64,000 bases of DNA from Mesodorylaimus sp. YZB2_4 (Eukaryota > Nematoda > Enoplea > Dorylaimida > Dorylaimidae). Shown piece after piece: positions 1,930-57,999 of the stretch. The position numbers and the translations under genes were made by a program. The stretch is from positions 62,001 to 126,000 of the forward strand of contig JASANH010000485.1 of the NCBI GenBank assembly GCA_030248295.1, read 5' to 3'. The number at the start of each line of letters is the position of its first letter. Position 1 is the first letter of the stretch. A model generated the notes under the pieces. It searched no databases and had not been told where the DNA came from. It saw nothing but the letters and a program-made list of their open reading frames with translations.

Positions 1930-3830
1930 GGATTCGGCTTCAGAGTCTCTTATGGACTGCCTGGGGGCATTTGAGAAAAGTTTATAATTCCTAAAATTTT
2001 GAGAGCGGAGATTTGAAAGTAAAAGTTATCTGACTGAGATCTGGCACCGTTGCCCCACCTTGCATAGAAACAACAGGCAGCAAATCTGTACATTTGCATA
2101 CACAGGAAAAGTTCTGCAGTCTAGCTGTGGAATCAGGTAAATTCTGGAAGCTGCTAGTGTCAGCATCCATCAATCTCTTTGGTACAAATGGTGAAGAGTG
2201 GTGAGAGAGTGATACACAGCACAGGGCTGTGCAGTGATTGAGGGCACTGGTGATAGTGACGCATGGATTCATGTTCATGTTATACCACATCACCAAACAC
2301 TTATGCACACTCGAGGCTGAAGGAAGACATTGCACACGAACTGACACCGACCACGAGTCAAACACAGAGCTATGGTGCAACAGAAATTGAGACACAACGA
2401 CATGTGAAGTGGTAAAAGACCAGCAGATGCCAAGGGAATGACATCACTGACCTATTAAAAACATGTGAGCCATAACATAAAAAGCACGCTTTCGGGTCAA
2501 AGATATGTAGCACAGAATGATCCATTATCGTTGCTGCGCCCCTTCTCTCTTGTGCCAGAAGCTCGGCAGGCCATGCTTCCCATTTCTGTTTGATTAATAT
2601 ATGGCGGAAAAAAGAAAATATCTGCGATAAGAGCAAAACTGGGTCTATCTGGCATGTGGGGCTACGGTCCTGTTACCACAGGCAAACTGTAGACATCTTG
2701 CGAAGAGTATAGTGAAAAAGCCAATTCATAGCTAAATCAAGCTGCTAGGGCACTTTTGAAACGAAAAAACAGGGTGGCTTTATCAAAAGTGAAGCAAAAA
2801 GAAAAGTAGATGTTATTCCATCTGCTCTTTCTCACTGCGTTGTGTTGATTCCCTTTGTCACTAATTGCTGTAAAAGAATATCAAGGCTGTGTCAGTCTCG
2901 CTGTAATACGACTCGGTCCGTATTACTGGAGGGAGTAACCGGTGGAGCTTTTGCACCACGCCAAAAACCCAGGGCAGCCTACTAAGTCCTCCGACCTAGT
3001 ACATGGCTGAAACGTCACCCTGACGGGTGACGCTCCTAACTGCCGGCTCCGTGCAGAGTATCGATTGCCAGTCGAGCCTCTACATCGCTACCTGTTCAAT
3101 CATCGAGGTTTTCCTCAGCATAAGTGAGTTGTATAAGCTGAATGCTTTTTTGTGCCGCCAAAAAGTTTGCATATTTTCTCAAAAAGTGGTGGCTTACTTT
3201 TCCAGACCCTTTCCTGGAGGAGCTCCCTCCCAGATGGGCCCCCTTCAATAATGTGCGTGATACCTCCCACTTAGGGGTAGGAATACCTGCATACGTACAT
3301 AATTCGAATCACCCCTGCGCGGTCCCTACCGAAACGGACACTGATAACGCTAGCTCTTAATTGGGCCGACGGGCGGGCACCTCCACAAGCATAAGACCAG
3401 CCAAGTGACGCATAGCGGAGAGGCGGCTAGGATGGGGACCCAACCGCTCGTGGCGAAATACGAAAACAGGACGGGCTGAAGGCAGCCCACGAGGCCACGG
3501 CGGTCCGAAGGGCACCTGAGCGACCTGTCCTGGAACTAGTCTAGATTAGATCCATGCTCGCTCTCCTTGCTCCATGACAAGAGAGGACAAGCGGGAAGTG
3601 TTCACGAGTTGCATCCAGGCGACTCGTGCCGGCCGGTTTAAACCGGTAGAGACATACCCTCATCAGGAGATGCTGGTTACATGTGTCTAGTGGCACTCAT
3701 CCAATACCTGCAAATTGTCTTAACCGTCTCCGTCAGACACAACTCCACATACTTGTACCCCATGTCCTGCAATAATCTCACTTAAAAGCCCGACATCATC
3801 TGATAAGAGAAAATTACTTCACAAACATGA
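1930..3830. other. No gene seen; one hairpin-repeat copy
   Basis: I found no convincing exon in these 1.9 kb. Around 2895-2930 there is a short inverted repeat (CTGTAATACG ... CGTATTACTGG), and at 3005-3036 a reverse-orientation copy of the dispersed hairpin repeat described elsewhere in this window. Open frames here are short and lack recognisable motifs. Confidence 0.5.
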
Positions 3831-3870
3831 CAACGTTCCCGTGCTAAGAGTGATCTGCAGTAACATCGAA

Positions 3871-4260
3871 ATGTTGCTGGATTCCTTCATCATGCTCTCG
3901 ATCGTGTGGATCATGGCCGTCATCCCCGCGGTAGTTACAGGCTTATCTGTGGAGTGGCAATCGTTGCCGGGAACGGCGGGACGTACTGCCGTATCGGCCA
4001 AGGGAAACGAATTGTGGTCGATTGACACTGCCGGCAATATCTTTCGTTGGACTGGAAATGACTGGACCAAGCTCGACGGCCACGCGAAAGGCGTCGGTGC
4101 AAGTCCTGATGGGAGTACTTGGATAGTAGATTTTGCAAAAGCTGCTCACAGAAGAAATGTTGCTTCAAACAAATGGGAAAGACTTCCAGGGGGCTTATTC
4201 GTCCAGGTCAATGCAATAGCCAAAGACACTGCGATCAGTGTCGATGGCCATAAAAATAAC
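3871..4260 (+). pseudogene. Tectonin-repeat secreted protein, 5' part of a split gene
   Basis: From the Met at 3871 the frame gives a hydrophobic signal peptide (MLLDSFIMLSIVWIMAVIP) followed by about three tectonin beta-propeller units. Each has the family rhythm of a W-x-x-LPG or W-x-KLDG core, then SPDGSTWIV or KGNELWSI, then NIFRWTGNDW. Tectonin lectins are secreted or membrane-associated six-bladed propellers that bind carbohydrate or lipid A. The upstream Met at 3841 is in frame but would bury the signal peptide, so 3871 is preferred. The propeller stops after about two and a half blades near 4257, shortly before the arm of an inverted-repeat element, and resumes at 9232. The gene therefore appears broken by repeat insertion. 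Confidence 0.7.
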
Positions 4261-4544
4261 CAATTCAAATTTTAGCATTTATAAATTTTTGCCTGTAAAG
4301 CTTCGTGAGTTATCTTGCGACCGGTGAGTCTTTTGTTAATTTTTTACCATCATGGATCAAAAATATTGGTAAACCTTAGGCATAAGTGGAAAATTGACGG
4401 ATTTACTTATTTGAGGATTCTATCGCAAAAAGTATTTAACTCCTGATGGCTGTACTCTCATTTTGCATTTGGTCATAAATTCTGATGGCGCCAGGTTTAC
4501 TATACCAAAATCAGGATACGTACAAAGTTTTAAAGATTGTGTGA

Positions 4545-9231: not shown

Positions 9232-9495
9232 GAAATGTGGATGGTTCAAAAGGACAGAACCATCTGGCGCTATGAAAACAACAATTGGATCCCGAAACCT
9301 GGGCACGGCTTCATCATGGTCGACGTTCAAGGCCCTAATCGTGTGATCGCATTGACTAATAATGGACATATTTACTTGTGGTGAGGTAGCAAATGGGAAA
9401 TCGTGTCAGGAGTCGCCCAAAGCGTCAGCATAAACGACAAGTGCCTGTTTTCCGTCCAAAATGGAGTAATAAAACGATTTTGTGATAACCCGTGA
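9232..9495 (+). pseudogene. Tectonin-repeat protein, 3' part of the split gene
   Basis: The frame from 9232 (EMWMVQKDRTIWRYENNNW) continues the tectonin pattern seen at 3871-4260: W-R-Y-x-x-x-x-W, then NRVIALTNNGHIYLW, GSKWEIVSGVAQSV and a final short blade, ending at TGA 9493-9495. One in-frame TGA at 9382-9384 sits between YLW and GSKW, where functional copies have a sense codon. A TGA directly precedes the piece (9229-9231). The 5' fragment ends HKNN and this one begins after NN, which suggests a short duplicated or shared junction and a single ancestral gene. Confidence 0.6.
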
Positions 9496-9840
9496 TAAGT
9501 TGGAGGCGTATGCTTGGAAGATACGAAATAGTAGTTGCTTGAATTTTGAATTGCAAGCTGATAAATGTAGGCTAGTTAATAAAGGTGGGTCGAAATTATG
9601 AAGTCTTTTCTAGAGACTCATTATGGGCAACAGTTAGAGTATTCGAAAATCGCTTGGAAAGGTAAAAAGGGCGATGGTATACCCTACGTGTGCAGTCGAC
9701 GTGAGAGGTTGACTCTAGTTTTTTCTCCTCCTGTTTACATTGTGAATATACCAATAATTGCGGAAAACGTCAAAAGAATTTTGCTCTTCTGTTTTTTCTG
9801 TTTCACTCCTGGAAGGAGCGCGATCTCATAAACTGTAAAC

Positions 9841-11230
9841 GTGAATGAAAATTTAATTGAAATGGATTTGGAAAATGGTAATAATATCAAAATGCCAGTT
9901 TCGATGGAAACGGAAATAAAAAAGGCTGCTTTCATCCCGCTGCAAAGAGGAAGATTATTAGACCGTTCTGCTCGTGAAATCATCAAATCGATCTCGAACG
10001 AAAATCCCAAAGAATTTTACCGGGATGCCGCAGTGGCAAGAAAATTATCGATTTTTCGACTCATGACTGATCTGGAAATGCCACGAGTGCCGTCAATGGA
10101 AGTGAACAAAGTGATTCATATATTTGGAGTGCCGGATGAAGAAGCTCAATCAACGATCGAACAGTTGCTTAAAAGTCAAGGTATGGAAATGGCACGCGAT
10201 TCGGGAATCCGATGGTTATGCTGGCCAGAGACAGAAATCAGGAATGGTGGTCGGTCAGTCAAACTTCGAATTCAAATCAACAAAGAGATCCCGGGTTTTG
10301 CAAATTTTAAATCTGAGACGCTAAATCGAATGGTACCAATATCGATATGGTACTATGGCATGCCGAAGTATTGCTGGAAATGAAAGGAAAAGGGACACGT
10401 ATCGAAGGAGTGCCCGGCTAGGATCGATAATCGACGATACGAAAATGATGCTTATGCAGCACGAGCGAGCGGCGGATATGGCGGGTTTCGACCTGGGACA
10501 ATCATGAACGGAACTGAACAGGAAGCTACGACGCACTCTGGAAGCCTCAATACCGAAAATTTCCCACCAATGCAAACGCTCACTTCGGAGCAGCAAATTC
10601 TCAGAAGAGCGCCGATTTCCCCAACGAAAGATTACTTCCCCTTCTATACCAAGGACTCAAAATTTTCGAATCACTATCTGTGCAAGTTCGAAATGAACAA
10701 CCACACCTACAAGTCGACTGAGCATTAAGAAGCAGCGTGCATGGGCGAAAAAGAAATTGAAAAGAAGATTTCGAACGCAAAAACTGCGGCAAAAGCAAAA
10801 GAATATGGTGAGCAGTTGCAATGGGACGAAAAAGAACACGGTTCGTGGATAGATTTCGCAAAGAACAAGCTTCATGCAGCAAATAAGAAAAAATACGAAC
10901 AAAATCGGGAAGTACGCAAGGCTTTGTTCGAAGCAACCCCAAAGATTCTTGTCGAAGCCATCCCAAATGACTCGATCTGGGGAGCGGGAGTTGGAGTCAA
11001 CGATCCGGCGATCAACGACGAGTCCAAATAAAGAGGAGGAAATCAATTCGGGAAGATATTAACGAAAATACGGGACGAAATGACGGCGAATCCAAAGTAA
11101 CTACGAAGAAGAGGTCAATACGATCATGGAACAACGACGAAATAAAGATGGAAAGAAACGCATGCGAGAAAGTACATCGGGATCGGACACCGACGGCGAG
11201 GATGCATCCAAACAACGTAAGAACCAATAG
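9841..11230 (+). pseudogene. Tx1/L1-like LINE ORF1: RRM-like, CCHC knuckle and NADAR domain
   Basis: One reading frame runs from ATG 9841 to 11098, broken by only three stops (TGA 10381, TAA 10726, TAA 11029). The N-terminal ~170 codons match Tx1-type ORF1: an RRM-like fold (NKVIHIFGVPDEEA ... SVKLRIQINKEIPGF ... MVPISIWYYGMPKYC) leading into a gag-type zinc knuckle (C-W-K-stop-K-G-K-GH-V-S-K-EC) at 10369-10410. After a ~65-codon linker comes a NADAR (YbiA-like) domain at about 10636-11098: FPFYTKDSKFSNHY, YKSTEH, KISNAKTAAKAKEYG, KKKYEQNREVRKALFEA, LVEAIPNDSIWGAGV and RGGNQFGKILTKIR. Glu of STEH and Asp-Trp of NDSIWG, the conserved pocket residues, are retained. A basic Ser/Asp-rich tail (EQRRNKDGKKRMRE) follows in another frame to the TAG at 11228-11230. 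ORF2 starts 60 bp downstream. As it stands it is a dead copy. Confidence 0.75.
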
Positions 11231-12829
11231 CTTTTGACCTTGGCACCAGATAGGCTCAATCTCTTTTTGGATCTCACAATAGGGAGGTCATGTTTTCAAC
11301 CAACAATGCTGCAGGACTTCGAGATAAGATACCAAAAACGTTGTCTATTTTCGCTTTTCTAAAAAGTTTGGATATAGTGTGCATTCAGGAGACTCACTTC
11401 CGTAGTGCTCAGGAAGCAGCTTTTTTCGATAGTGTTTTTCAGTCGGGCTTCAGGATTTTTCACACTTTTTCTAAAGAGTATAGTGCAGGGCTTGTATACT
11501 AATAAGTAGAAGGTGTTTTTTCTTTGAGATTATTCGTGTCACTAGTGTCCCAGGTCGAGGCCTGGTATTAGCTGCTGAATTTGGAGCCAAGTCTTTTTTG
11601 TTTGTGGGTGTATATGCGCCAGCTCAGGAGCATGCCAGGAAGGGTTTCAATGATGAATTATATGAGACGACTTCGCAAAGGCTCCGGTATCATGATGCAA
11701 GTGTTTGCCTCGGCGATTTCAATTTTGTAGAATCTAAAGAGCTTGATCGCAGTGATCTCACAAATTATCTAGAGGTGGGCCTGAAAGAATTCCGAAGATT
11801 TTCTTCGAAATTCAAAGTTTGGGATATTTTTAGAGTGCATCATCATAATGGTCGTGAGTTCTCTCATCTCGCCCGTAGCACCAAAACGCAGGGCCGACTT
11901 GATAAAATCTACGCAACTGAAAACGTGGTGAATTCTTACGTAAAACGCAAATTTACAAATACGGGCCTATCTGACCATGAAATCTTTGAGATAGGTGTAA
12001 TTTTTCTTTTGCAAAGGTACCTTGTTATTGGAAACTGGATGTACAGTAGACTTCTTTGCAAAAGATAAATTTTTGCAAGAGTGCGTGATAAATAAACTGC
12101 ATGCGCTGCAAGGTGTAATATGTCATGCTACTGATGAGGATATCTTGTTACAATGGGAGCATTGCAAAATAGAAATAGGAGATCAGTGTAAGGCAAGGAA
12201 AAGGACTGTAGAACTAGAGAACAGGAAAAAACGTCTGTGGCTAGAAAAGGAGCTGGAGAAAGCAAAGGAATTATTGGGTGTGCATAAAACGAGTGTAATT
12301 CTAAAAGCCGAATATTTGGATGTGTGTGATAAGGCTTAGGGCTTTTGACAGGAAGAAGTTTGGGAGACTCACGTCAGAGATCTAGCCACTGACCACTGCT
12401 AAACAAATGCAAAAGAATTCGGCTGAAAGTAGAACAGTGTATGCTGTACGTGGGGAAAACGGGTCTTTGTATGGAGACCAACTCGAGGTTATTGAAGAAA
12501 TTAGGCGGCAGTATGCCCAGTTGTTTACGAGCGTTGGGAAAACTGACGAAAGCGCAGCAAAGGAGTTTTTGAACCAGCCTCCTTTTGGGGTGGCGAATGA
12601 GGCTGACAGAAAGGATTTTGGGGAGGAGATAGGAGAGGATGAGGTAAAGAATGCCATGCGCTCTTTTCAAGGGAAAAAGTCACCTGGCAGTGATGGGTTA
12701 CCAATAGAACTTTATACAGTTTTCTTGAACGAAACGGGATGGATATTGAGCAAGGTATCTGATCTGATTTATTCCCCAGCGAAACGCAGTTGCGCACTAA
12801 ACTGCGGGACATGAGCATACCGTGTAACA

Positions 12830-14240
12830 ATAAATTAAAAGTCAAAGAAAAATGTGAAACGTCGATCATTTTTAAAACAGAAAAGCGTGTACAGATTTCC
12901 TGAACTTGCCATATGACATTAATCTTTTTCTTCATCGACCACAGAAAATATAAACTTTTGTGGAATCGAATTCCATAAAATAAATGATGAGTGTTCAAAC
13001 GATTGTTCGAATGCAATTGTGACAGTTGGGTCTGGGGGTAGCTCAAGGTGATGGCTGCCATTGAGACGTGAACTAACCCTGCGCCCAGATTCTGACGTCA
13101 GTTTGAGTCGACTTTGATCGTAATCATGCTTGCCAGAAAAAAATTTGTGTAGTTGACACAGTTTAAGAATTTTTCTTCGATCGGCCATTGTTCTCCAGCC
13201 CCACTCTGATAGGGTCGAGGCGTAGTTTGCGGTCCAGTTTTTGGTCAAAAGGCGCAAAGCGTACTCCTGGGTACGTTCTAATTTATCTATGTCTTCCTGA
13301 AGAATTAGATCGTAGATTTGACAGCCGTAGTCAAGCTTCACCCGAATACAGGCTTCAAAGACTGCCTTGAAGACTTGCGGTGGACAGTTTCGGCCTAATT
13401 TTCGGTGCAGTGCACCGATCATTGATCGGGATGCAGATGAGATTTCGGAGACGTGCTCGCTGAATTTCATATCCGCTGATAAGGTAACTCCCAAGCACTT
13501 GACTTTTTCCGCAACGTCCAGTACCATGCCGTCAATAGTAAGCTTTGGCGAATGACTGAGTTCACGGTGATTATATCGAAATACGGCCACTTTACATTTT
13601 GAAGGATTCAAGTGCAGACCCGCAGACAGGAATCTCGACTGGATGAAATCTATTGCAGGCTGTAGAACTGACTCTGCATCTTTAAGCCGTTTCAGTGGAG
13701 CCAACAGTGATGTATCGTCAGCGAATCCGAAAAGCGACAAATTTGGAAATTGCGTTTCGAAGTCGATGAATATCAGGTCGAGGGCAGCAATGAATAAGAT
13801 TGGGCCTAGCACACTACCTTGCGGCACCCCACTGACCACTCGATCCCTCGTCGAAGCACAGTTATCGACGGACACATATTGCCAGCGATCGGTTAGATAA
13901 GAATTCATCCAAATAAGAAGCTTGGGGGGGTACCCGATGATGACGTTCGAGCGTTCGAAGTAAGATTAGATGCGGTAGGTGATCGAAAGCTTTTCGAATG
14001 TCCAGAAAGATGCCAAGCACATGACTCACTTCTTTTTGGCTGAGCCAATCATGAATTGATTAAGTACATCGGATCAAAGCGCTTATAGTTGATCGACCTT
14101 GGGAAAATCCGTGTTGATGGCGGGAGATTTTAATTTGTCTTCGGAAGAACCCAGCCACAAGTCGTTCCATAACTTCGGACAAAACAGATAGGAGAGAAAT
14201 CGGTCGATAATTTCCTATATTCCCTCTGTCTATAGAGGTA
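12830..14240 (-). mobile_element. 5'-truncated LINE (CR1/Jockey-like) inserted in the Tx1/L1 ORF2
   Basis: A 329-codon open frame (13908 to 12919) on the minus strand encodes the second half of a reverse transcriptase: VVSGVPQGSVLGPILF, the active site FADDTS, LHLNPSKCKVAVF, VKCLGVTLSADMKF, and the C-terminal region LERTQEYALRLLTKNW. Upstream, 13909-14235 encodes the earlier RT blocks in shifted frames. The host ORF2 is cleanly interrupted: its pre-RT part stops near 12790 and its RT block resumes near 14250. This copy is less decayed than the host element and therefore younger. It is related to, but not the same as, the fragment at 4545-5969. Confidence 0.75.
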
Positions 14241-14456
14241 TATAGAGCTTCATCCTTCTAGTTGTTATTTTGGAATAAATCCGCAGCTTTACAAAGGCGA
14301 GGGGATAAAGCGCAAAGATCTAGCTGGATACCTTTGACCATGTTGAATGTTGGCTACAGAATCTTAGCAAAGATTCTTAAGATGAGACTGAGGAAAGTGA
14401 TGGTCGAATTGTGCATCCTGGCCAGACTTGCTCTGTGCCGGGCAGAGCAAGTCTGG

Positions 14457-14552
14457 TCCCTTTTCCTTACATTTCCAACAATACTTCGGCATGCCATAGT
14501 ACCATATCGATATTGGTACCATTCGATTTAGCGTCTCAGATTTAAAATTCGA
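14457..14552 (-). repeat. Antisense copy of a 95-bp ORF1 segment inside ORF2
   Basis: The sequence 14457-14552 is the reverse complement of 10303-10396 with only a few mismatches (TTGGTACCATTCGATTTAGC is shared). It is preceded by a perfect 13-bp hairpin, CCAGACTTGCTCT / AGAGCAAGTCTGG at 14421-14455. It breaks the ORF2 frame between the ILAKIL and FDIVEW blocks of the reverse transcriptase. Confidence 0.75.
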
Positions 14553-17064
14553 GACGGGGTCCTGACGCTGTAAAATGCTGTAGAGTACATTAATGAGTCA
14601 GATATGTGCGCGATACTTCTCTCAGTTGGCCATATGACCGCCTTTGACATCGTGGAATGGGAGTATCTTCTCGCCGTCTGGAACTATTTTGAGTTAGGCA
14701 AAGATTTTCGAAATTGGATCAAGGTCATTTATAAAGCAGGGATAGTAACGACGTCTGTACAAGTGAACGGGTATATATCCTCGCCCTTTCACCCAAGCAG
14801 AGGGATAAGGCAGGGCTGTCCATTGTCGGCTTTATTGTATGTGCTTGAATCAGAGACTGTCACTAATTATGTCAGGAGGAAAACAACCATAAAAGGAATA
14901 GATTTAATTGGGCAGGAACTAAAAATTAGCAATTACGCGGATGACACGAATTTTCTGTTGACTGACTGTGTCTCTATAAAGCGCAATTTGACGTGTGCGA
15001 AAAATTTGGGAAAGCATCTGGGGCAACACTAAAACTGGAAAAACCAAAATTTTGTTACTTGGCTCGATGAATCTGGCTGATTTAGAGCAAGACCTGCAAA
15101 CTTATGTGGTCGAGCAAGTAAAGGTTTGTGGGTTCTTGATTTCCAGTGCGAGAATGGAAATAGCAGCAAACTGGTCTTTAGTGCGCGAACATATCGGGAC
15201 ACTAAGCAGCAAAACACCGCATTGCGAAAGTATGGTATTTAGCGTCCATAATCGCACCTTAGTCTGATCTCCAACGGTATATTGAAAAAAATATAGATGG
15301 ATATTTCTAGTATCCATCCAAAGCAAATATGGTTAACAAGTACATTTTGAGAAGGAGTAAAGCCCAAGGCGGAGTGGCTTACCCAGATGTAGACATTAAA
15401 GTGTTAGCCTTCCGCTTGATGCTTCTGTTGCGTAGACTGGTAGCCAGCCAGGAAGCAGCTTGTCACAGGGTGTTTGATTTTTTCTTTGAGAAAGTGAAAT
15501 ACGCAAAACTCAATCAGCTGACTAACATAGCAGTACCTCGACTGTATAAAGATATCCGCAGGGCTGTTATAACTGCCAAGTTTTGTCTAAGAGACCAGGG
15601 TAGTGAGGGATTAGACACCAAAACATATCCGCTGAAACACATCAAAACCAAGATATTTTATGAGCACATGATGGGCGGTAAAGTGGGCAAGGCCACCCTG
15701 GCCATGCAGGAATACTGGAAAGCAAAGTTGGGGAACGACTCAATTGATTTTGGGGCTTATTGGAACTTAACCAGGACTAAGAATGTTGACGGGCTGACTC
15801 GTAGTTTGCACTATGGCTTGCTGTATAAGGCTTTATGCACGAGAAGTAGAGTTTCTAAATTCGCTGATGTTGAAGCAAATTGTAAATACTGCAGGAATCA
15901 CTATGCATGTATTGACACTGAGGATGTTCACCACGTTTTCGTCTCATGTTCACGGGCAGTATCATTTTGGAATAAGGTGTAGGTTTTTTTAAAAATAATA
16001 GATCCGGCTACTACTTTGGGGGCTGAAAACAGGGTTTTCGGGATAGTAGGTTCGTCCAACAAGTTTGCCGCCTCAATAGCAAACTTAGTTCTGCAAGCAG
16101 CAAAGAGGTGCATATGGTTTGCGAGGTAGATTACGAGGAGGAAAATGGGATAGTTGACCTGTGGAAATCACTGTTGAGACGGCTAAAAGTTCTGAAAGTA
16201 AGAGCGAGGTACATCTTACCGCATAGTGAGTACAAGGAGCTTTTTGTGAAGTCGTCTTTCTGTAGGGTTCTATCGTTGTATGGGTAAAATATAGGTGTGC
16301 AGTGGGCAGAGAAAAGAATAAGGAAAATGAAAAATTGAAAATTGAAAAAAATAGAAACAAAAAGGGGAAAAAACGTATTAAGAAAATATAAAACTGCTGT
16401 GGATTTTGCCCATTATTGTCTTTGTTGCGAAAATAATCTGCGAAAAGTTTTGGTTATTGAGAAGGTACTTATCGTAAGAGGAGAACTTTGTCTTCACTCA
16501 TTGCGGGAGCTAGTGTGCGGATATTTTTTTGTTTTGAGAATTACGCGTTGTGCAGTGGTTTTCTACTAGTTAGGATGCATGTAAGTAAAGCAGCTAAGCT
16601 GTGAGAATGAGATCAAACAGGAGATAGCAGCACCTAGATTGGTGCCATTTTTCCTTTCTATTCGCTTATATTGCTTGGTTTATTAAGGTCACAAAGAAAA
16701 GAAGGAAGATCAACAAGCGATAAAAAAGTGTGATAAATTGATCGAATTTGAATTTAACGGTTTTTGCACTTAAAATTGATGCCACGAAAAAAAATGCCAC
16801 TGAAAAAAAATACTAGAAATCGAAAAAAATACCCTACGTCCCTATTGTAACCCGCATCTAATGATGAGGGTACCTACCGTGTAGGTATGTACGCCCACTC
16901 ATAGACGGGAGGAGTATCACACTATGTACTTATGTCAGCCGTTTTTGTAAGACCTGGAGGCCATACAAGTATAGTATGCCCCCTTGGTCAGTATCCGTCT
17001 GACTGCGAGAAGGCCTGAGTAGCTGCGAAGTGCATGTACAGCCAAAAACCCATACAATACATCA

Positions 17065-56321: not shown

Positions 56322-57999
56322 ATGAGTGTTCCTAATATTCTTGCTTGTCTTGCTGAACTCGCAGATGTGCAGGCAATAATCGCACACGACAGTAGTTTTT
56401 CAGAGAACGAAAAACTAATTGCGTCACATCTCTGGCATTGTATGCAAGACATGGTGAAAAAAATGCAAAATGGAGAGTCTTTGCACAAATATACCTCACG
56501 ATCAGTGCAATCCGACACAAATAATAGCATGGGTGATGCAGGGTGTACTCACGAGAACGAAAAAAGAATGAAGGAGGGGGAAACTAACCTAAAATATAAA
56601 AAAAAAAATAAATAAAAAAAAAAAAAAATATAAAAACAGAATAAAGAAATTAAAAAACAAAAAAAAAAAAAAAAAAGAAATAATTAAAGATTGGACTGTA
56701 GATGAAATAAGAAAGGTTGTTGAATTCGCTGATAGTCATCCGAATTACTCGTTTAAGTCCTTAAAGCAAAAATTTCGCAGACTTCAGGATCATAAGATGC
56801 TTTCTCGCATGCGCATGTACTTAAAGCAAAATGGATCACGACTTCAAAAGCAGCGAGGTATTGATGCAGCTGTGTTGCAACAGTTCAAAGATGCTCGCAA
56901 TAATTTGCATGCAGTACATGATTCTGATCTACGCCGGTGGGGTAAGATTGCAGCAAGTGAAGTAGGATGTAATAAGTTCAAAGGGAGCAAAAGGTGGCTT
57001 TCTGCATTTAAACAGCAGCATGGTGTAACGTCTCGTAGAGTCACGCTGATCCAAACGTCCAAGCAGGTGACTGACAGCGCACGTATTGAGCAATCTGCAC
57101 AGGAATTCCGAGCACAGGTGCAAGAAAAGGCTCTAAATTTTCCGCATGATTTGATTTTTAACACTGATCAGTCAGGCTTCAATTATGAATTTCATTCAAC
57201 AAGAACTTTGTCCAGGAAAGGTGAGAAAGTAACTGCTGTAGGAGTGAGGTCAAAGGACAAGGGTACGCATTCGTATACCATTCAGCCGCTTATCGATTAC
57301 AACGGTAGGATTCGAGGTAAATTGTATGTTTGTTTGTGGGAGCCTAAAGGACGAATGGGGGAGCAAGTTGAGAAAAGTTACTTCAGAGCACCAAATCTTG
57401 AAGTAACGTGTAGCAAGTCGAGTAAACTATCTGGCAGTTTATTTACGCGATACGTGGACTTGGTCTTTTTTCCAGTGGTGGATGATGACTGCTTGCTTTT
57501 GCTCGATTCTCTACCACTGCATCACAACAATGAGTGTTTCGAAATTTTTGACCATAGTGGGAAGACCTGCACCCGGCTAAAAATACCAGCTGGAACGACG
57601 GGTACTACCCAGCCTCTCGACGTGGGCATTTTCAGGCAATGGAAAGGTGTTGTAAGGCGATGTTACGATTTTGTGAGTATGAATAGCATAATTGATCCAA
57701 AAACTGGTAAACAATTGAACATGACGAGCAGGGACAGTGTGTTAAAACTGCAGTCCCTGGTTCATAACCAGTTTACGTCGGATGCATTCGTTCCTATGGG
57801 GCACTATGCATGGTACAAGGCAGGTCTGCGCCCAGATGCGCCTGGTCCTTTCAAAAACGCTGCTGAGATTTTGTTTCCCAAAAACGAAACCAGTTGCTCT
57901 GTCAGAGGATGTCTGCATCCTTTCTTTATCAGATGTGCGTTTTGTAACTCCAATTTATGCTTTCAAGATTTTTTCATCGGATATCACACTCATTTTTGA
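56322..57999 (+). pseudogene. Pogo/Tc5-like DDE transposase
   Basis: An N-terminal exon-like ORF (56322-56615; MSVPNILACLAELADVQA) is followed by an A-rich stretch and then the main frame, open from ~56685 (DWTVDEIRKVVEFADSHPNY, a Psq/CENP-B-N-like helix-turn-helix) with an ATG at 56797. Next comes the second DNA-binding part (HTH_Tnp_Tc5: CNKFKGSKRWLSAFKQQHGV). The DDE core is complete: FNTDQSGFNYEF (first Asp), LLLLDSLPLHHNN (second Asp) and IPAGTTGTTQPLDVGIF (third Asp). The frame reads 400 codons from 56797 with no internal stop and ends at TGA 57997-57999. Poly-A tracts between the two ORFs (56596-56675) may be an intron or a damaged linker. The core looks potentially functional. Confidence 0.82.

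Follow-up and report, generated by a model that had tools for sequence, protein, structure and literature searches.

A LINE (long interspersed nuclear element) whose first open reading frame (ORF1) carries a NADAR domain is present in the genome of the nematode Mesodorylaimus sp. YZB2_4, where the fusion is stable and maintained by selection. NADARs act in bacterial toxin-antitoxin systems, in which they undo the ADP-ribosylation of guanine, and they also occur in RNA viruses of animals. The element, here called NADAR-LINE, is represented by an old and broken copy in the stretch of 64,000 nucleotides analysed (contig JASANH010000485.1, positions 62,001 to 126,000; the window) and by intact copies elsewhere in the genome. 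The features of the window copy, in window coordinates, are:

9688..16390, + strand: NADAR-LINE copy, near full length, decayed; both ends approximate (5' by similarity to other copies, 3' by the A-rich tail)
9916..10377, + strand: ORF1 head with two RRM-like domains
10372..10413, + strand: CCHC zinc knuckle (from the translation), broken by an in-frame TGA (10381-10383)
10639..11097, + strand: NADAR domain (PF08719), with stops at 10726-10728 and 11029-11031
11278..12757, + strand: first part of ORF2, an APE-type endonuclease up to the start of the reverse transcriptase, frame-broken (tblastn with the L009, L014 and L018 ORF2)
12758..14253, - strand: a different LINE inserted in ORF2, outer limits approximate; its reverse transcriptase lies at 12919-13965 (RVT_1, E 1.2e-13)
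14254..16272, + strand: second part of ORF2, reverse transcriptase and C-terminal region, frame-broken (tblastn)

The initial annotation placed a NADAR domain in the frame of a LINE ORF1, and the peptides that it quoted were all recovered in frame 1 of window 9841-11230. When the translation of 10384-11098 was searched with TAA read as X, Pfam NADAR (PF08719) matched at 10651-11082 (E 8.5e-25), the 88.3 bits being far above chance level and above the curated cut-off of 35.1. The domain had been called full-length, which holds for the profile (positions 9-162 of 163) but not for every residue, as alignment shows that a few amino acids present in relatives are missing right after the catalytic Glu. 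Similarly, two TAA codons do interrupt the NADAR, but they are not the only stops, since the TGA in the knuckle brings the total in ORF1 to three. Continuity of the frame with the upstream domains was borne out by a single tblastn stretch (9916-11088, E 6e-95), in which head, knuckle and NADAR align in one frame to the intact ORF1 of copy L009. In the genome-wide NADAR table the domain is row G000:C257:72651-73082 (89.4 bits, two TAA).

The rest of the window copy is decayed too. Exo_endo_phos matched at 11484-12068 slightly below its cut-off (E 5e-5, 23.6 against 24.5 bits). The ORF2 alignment picks up again past the inserted minus-strand LINE (tblastn), and RVT_1 matched at 14574-15032 (E 1.4e-10). 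The 5' end resembles that of L018 (local alignment score 53, against at most 43 in 200 shuffles), and its score with the 5' end of L014 (28) is at the level of shuffled sequence. Within the ORF2 part of this same copy sits a short reverse-complement piece of NADAR-LINE ORF1 that comes from around the zinc knuckle (14457-14549).

Intact copies in the same genome establish that this is a true fusion, as had been proposed, and not a chance juxtaposition. The assembly (145 Mb, 1067 contigs) gave 75 NADAR matches, joined into 61 clusters, 36 of which had a LINE ORF1 head upstream or an entered reverse transcriptase (RT) row downstream and 25 neither; RT context was taken from 51 of 125 RT rows, the RT search having scored 119 of 743 candidates. 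Among 22 NADAR rows examined (from 19 fetched copies, with two rows in L028, and from the window), five have a single open ORF1 with NADAR followed by a single open ORF2 (L009, L014, L015, L018 and L019), so that the intact RRM-CCHC-NADAR ORF1s that the initial annotation suggested looking for do exist. These ORF1s span 485 to 570 amino acids between stops and encode two RRM-like (RNA-recognition motif) domains and a CCHC knuckle, then, after a loose linker, the NADAR and a charged tail; the division of the head into two RRM-like units is predicted. PF08719 was found in ORF1 of all five subfamily references at 97.8 to 114.5 bits, and zf-CCHC is listed in four of the five, exceeding its cut-off in L009 only. 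Intact ORF2 is 1190 to 1201 amino acids long, with RVT_1 and Exo_endo_phos in each of the three references tested.

NADAR-LINE has probably been active recently, as five copy pairs in two subfamilies are 98 to 99.5% identical across 5.5 to 5.9 kb. Nine copies were compared at their ends by eye, and all have A-rich 3' ends and unlike flanks. Five share a common 5' start, L014 and L016 a second one, and L015 and L024 begin further in. By the same inspection, made without statistics, a target-site duplication is likely in L014 and indistinct in the other eight. One locus, L028 (G000 C120:1-9000), holds two copies in opposite orientation less than 1.8 kb apart at a contig end, as would be seen with an inverted duplication or an assembly fold-back.

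The NADAR is also a stable part of the lineage. Searches with the ORF1 head gave 43 matches for L018 and 44 for L009; all 43 and three additional L009 places were joined into 41 clusters, and a NADAR lies downstream in 30 of them. Among the other 11, two are at a contig end (C946 and C313), one (L047) has a decayed NADAR (tblastn E 1e-6) and eight appear truncated or rearranged (C250, L043-L046 and L048-L050; about 2 kb downstream was viewed for fetched loci). L043 and L049 run from the head into RT and have lost the NADAR, the endonuclease and further sequence. None of the 11 joins the head to the endonuclease with just the NADAR missing, and thus copies of this LINE lacking the segment, which would have spoken against the fusion, were not seen in clean form. 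Eleven L1-type RT rows from this genome that are more distantly related (33 to 35% identity) lack a NADAR match at distances of up to 6 kb, and within the incomplete RT list the domain therefore marks one lineage here.

Across subfamilies, divergence of the NADAR is almost as slow as that of the endonuclease and RT, and it is lower than that of the RNA-binding head. Mean pairwise identity among five subfamilies (10 pairs each) is 61% for NADAR, 47% for the head, 36% for the linker and 28% for the tail, and among four references (6 pairs) 66% for endonuclease and 69% for RT. Six of 14 pairs were saturated at synonymous sites, so nonsynonymous divergence (dN) alone was used between subfamilies. 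For L018/L014, dN (bootstrap range) is 0.45 (0.36-0.55) in the head and 0.24 (0.18-0.31) in NADAR, compared with 0.22 (0.17-0.27) in endonuclease and 0.22 (0.18-0.27) in RT; head dN is 0.46 in L018/L009 and 0.52 in L014/L009. Four close pairs (L021/L027, L010/L026, L009/L022 and window/L013) have dN/dS of 0.09 to 0.21 at synonymous divergence (dS) of 0.33 to 0.88; one partner in these four pairs has usually decayed, which raises the ratio.

Several values weigh against such constraint. NADAR dN in L018/L009 (0.35) and L014/L009 (0.31) exceeds the 0.25 to 0.26 of endonuclease and RT, with overlapping ranges, and the ranges of head and NADAR overlap in one pair of three (L018/L009). The four other unsaturated pairs have higher dN/dS, namely L014/L024 (0.24 on 2 changes), L011/L012 (1.08 on 11), L013/L023 (0.46) and L018/L025 (0.59), the last two each with a decayed partner.

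Synonymous divergence jumps along some pairs. In L009/L022 it is 0.82 in NADAR, 0.19 in endonuclease and 0.17 in RT, while in L018/L021 RT is saturated and the value past RT is 0.33. These look like mosaic elements, from subfamilies that have exchanged ORF1 or 3' parts.

The element belongs, from its sequence, to the LINEs of the L1 superclade, as the initial annotation had it. Among solved structures the L018 ORF2 is closest to human L1 ORF2p (E 2e-66; R2, 2e-9), and the element has traits of the L1/Tx1 superclade, with two ORFs, an APE-type endonuclease followed by an RT nearest L1 in ORF2, A-rich 3' ends and dispersed insertion sites. It probably falls within the Tx1 clade, a name that we take from motifs and from the oyster families of PMC12477816.

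Two metagenomic proteins in public data, P0001 (427 amino acids) and P0002 (501 amino acids), carry the same succession of head, knuckle and NADAR. They are 34 to 35% identical to ORF1 over 88 to 89% (heads 32 to 38%, NADARs 42 to 48%), and the shared order indicates a fusion that predates the divergence of these sources. The same two proteins were returned by the ORF1 query and by the alignment query; neither a query with the NADAR domain only nor a scan of viral contigs gave further relatives. In a 13-row NADAR tree there is no starred branch, and LINE and host domains are neither grouped nor separated reliably.

An alignment of 24 rows, numbered from 8BAU, shows that the catalytic Glu, Asp and Trp, which the initial annotation singled out for checking, are retained in the intact copies. 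The LINE NADAR has the YbiA/NADAR fold. Position E125 is Glu in 23 of 24 rows and Gly in one (L013). According to the available passages of PMC11543638 this Glu distinguishes the YbiA subfamily from the BC4488 type (Asp) and the phage type (His), and by this residue the LINE NADAR is of the YbiA subfamily. K50 (K or R), K75, W89, D130 and W133 are retained in nearly all rows.

What the NADAR does for the element can be approached from these residues and from its position. We tentatively favour an ORF1-tethered NADAR hydrolase that frees element RNA or complementary DNA (cDNA) of N-linked, ADP-ribose-like adducts. ORF1p would coat the element RNA by way of its RRMs and knuckle, and the coating would hold the hydrolase beside the RNA and the single-stranded cDNA synthesized at the target site. 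In that position it would cleave N-glycosidic adducts, most likely guanine ADP-ribose or a related NAD-derived mark from host transferases, and their removal would keep template and cDNA copyable. PARP matches are present in the genome. In the parts of PMC11543638 available, NADARs take ADP-ribose off guanine modified by DarT1 in single-stranded DNA, and eukaryotic members share this conserved activity.

Other findings tell against this hydrolase. ADP-ribose contacts in 8BAU are K50, R79, W89, R93, D130 and W133, with K75 nearby and with R79 and R93 on the pyrophosphate (PMC11543638, same passages). In the LINE rows, position R79 is never Arg (E in 14, G in 4, K in 4 and D in 2 of 24), and position R93 is Ala in 22 of 23 readable rows; both arginines are also replaced in the two distant metagenomic relatives. 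Because these pyrophosphate contacts are replaced, ADP-ribose itself may not be the substrate. The replacements bear likewise on the proposal of the initial annotation, by which the element would remove ADP-ribose from nucleic acid or protein of its own. In addition, the genome has no match to the DarT family. The absence of the two arginines, which grip the phosphates, points to a substrate that is not quite the one used by the free-standing NADARs that have been studied. A stronger form of the proposal, in which a catalytic NADAR is core to retrotransposition in a widespread LINE lineage and its active site is retuned for a specific adduct on the element's own RNA or cDNA, is possible though doubtful.

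NADAR might instead process the 5' end or modified bases of element RNA, in repair or cap processing and with no anti-defence role. Its location in ORF1 with RRM-like folds and a knuckle would suit this, as would the processing of RNA intermediates proposed for Ectocarpus elements in the passages of PMC12477816 and the part taken by the nematode NADAR protein SNA-3 in RNA trans-splicing (PMC9303266, in part). However, the substrates measured, in so far as the passages report them, are guanine-ADP-ribose in DNA (PMC11543638) and riboflavin intermediates (PMC9303266), not RNA, and we regard this role as unlikely, if a serious contender.

Rather unlikely is a NADAR that acts as a reader, binding ADP-ribosylated protein or nucleic acid where PARPs have marked target sites and docking the element ribonucleoprotein there. 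Replacement of the two pyrophosphate-contact arginines in an otherwise retained pocket is compatible with binding, PARP matches exist in the genome, and human L1 integration sites are places of action of PARP1 and PARP2, whose loss lowers retrotransposition (PMC8535693, available passages). Against this, the two catalytic-site Glu residues, the Asp and the Trp are kept and are not necessarily required for binding alone, while fewer phosphate contacts are expected to weaken ADP-ribose binding.

It is improbable that NADAR is passively carried by ORF1 and removes from the cell a damaged riboflavin intermediate or a soluble signal derived from NAD or ADP-ribose. YbiA does act on riboflavin intermediates (PMC9303266) and soluble ADP-ribose derivatives have been proposed as targets of phage NADARs (PMC9503650; both from the passages available), but action in cis agrees better with a constraint near that of endonuclease and RT and with a position behind the head that is the same in five subfamilies and in the two metagenomic relatives. 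Finally, although the window copy by itself has stops and 25 of 61 NADAR clusters were found without LINE context, a host NADAR fragment lying by chance beside a LINE ORF1 is ruled out by the intact copies and the two metagenomic proteins, the same order recurring in five intact ORF1s and 30 of 41 head clusters.

If a retuned NADAR is indeed core to the element, an invertebrate host pathway would mark retroelement nucleic acid with ADP-ribose-like groups. A probably recently active LINE with a constrained NADAR offers a genetic handle on whether such marks limit retroelements, and the lineage, defined by intact copies, a residue map and distant relatives, is known sufficiently to design a retrotransposition test with a catalytic change.

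A second architecture was observed at L037 and L038 (G000 C289 and C621), where a NADAR match is followed by frames with SGNH-hydrolase-like motifs, recognized by eye and with no Pfam match. The same partial match pattern occurs at C929, C765, C491, C936 and C134 (L037-like) and C174 (L038-like). An RT match at G000:C196:126737-127750 has an open frame of 22,320 amino acids, probably an N run adjoining an element. Elsewhere in the window, 56593-57999 encodes a Tc5-type DNA transposon transposase in one long open frame (Transp_Tc5_C, E 2e-11; DDE_1, E 1e-8) and 3724-4275 a Tectonin repeat protein (E 9e-11). Similar W-rich coding traces were seen by eye at about 9300-9480, immediately upstream of the LINE. 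A serpentine-receptor-like protein at 48351-49265 matches Srx weakly, under the cut-off (E 0.0013), as would suit a nematode host. In the genome, the largely nematode family TTR-52 has 27 matches, and the nematode SL1 22-mer has none when up to 2 mismatches are allowed.

The initial annotation was not aware of any description of this architecture, but one exists. As far as its available passages go, PMC12477816 (2025) notes in one sentence NADAR-like domains in ORF1 of several Pacific oyster Tx1 LINE families and calls their role unclear. These families, like NADAR-LINE, have a LINE ORF1 with a YbiA-family NADAR and are probably the same element class; their NADARs are known as divergent Repbase hits, and the likeness is one of description, not of aligned sequences. 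Beyond that paper, no link between NADAR and retroelements was found among the papers listed by full-text searches, as judged by title and passages, most subscription papers lying outside their coverage. The transposon terms searched for are absent from the texts of PMC9503650, PMC9303266, PMC11543638, PMC11125620 and PMC11287256, and NADAR and YbiA from that of PMC10294476, on bivalve transposons.

Other known NADARs differ in their setting. The same passages of PMC12477816 describe NADAR in Ectocarpus Gypsy elements, for which almost only bacterial relatives were found. There, as in NADAR-LINE, a retroelement has acquired a NADAR that is conserved across families, but the element is of the long-terminal-repeat type and the domain lies in Pol, not in an RNA-binding ORF1. 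RNA-virus NADARs have been proposed to counter host ADP-ribosylation (PMC9503650), and in Caenorhabditis an incompatibility region contains two NADAR genes, which are not elements (PMC7853720; both from partial text). The nematode trans-splicing protein SNA-3 has three NADAR domains, and mutation of catalytic-site residues impairs it (PMC9303266). Like NADAR-LINE ORF1 it is an animal NADAR protein working with RNA; unlike it, SNA-3 is a host gene, and LINE context is absent from the passages of that paper. A multi-NADAR host gene, apparently with introns, lies at L035 (G000 C230:15500-19200) and is SNA-3-like by layout alone.

The Phytophthora nicotianae NADAR (8BAU) and E. coli YbiA (2B3W) are not retroelement parts, and 8BAU keeps R79 and R93 on the pyrophosphate, whereas the LINE NADAR has them replaced. 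Human LINE-1 ORF2p is like NADAR-LINE in the order and sequence of endonuclease and RT. Human L1 ORF1p combines a coiled coil with a single RRM and is not known to carry a NADAR. NADAR in a LINE ORF1 is thus an architecture already known, to which intact copies, constraint and a residue map are added here.
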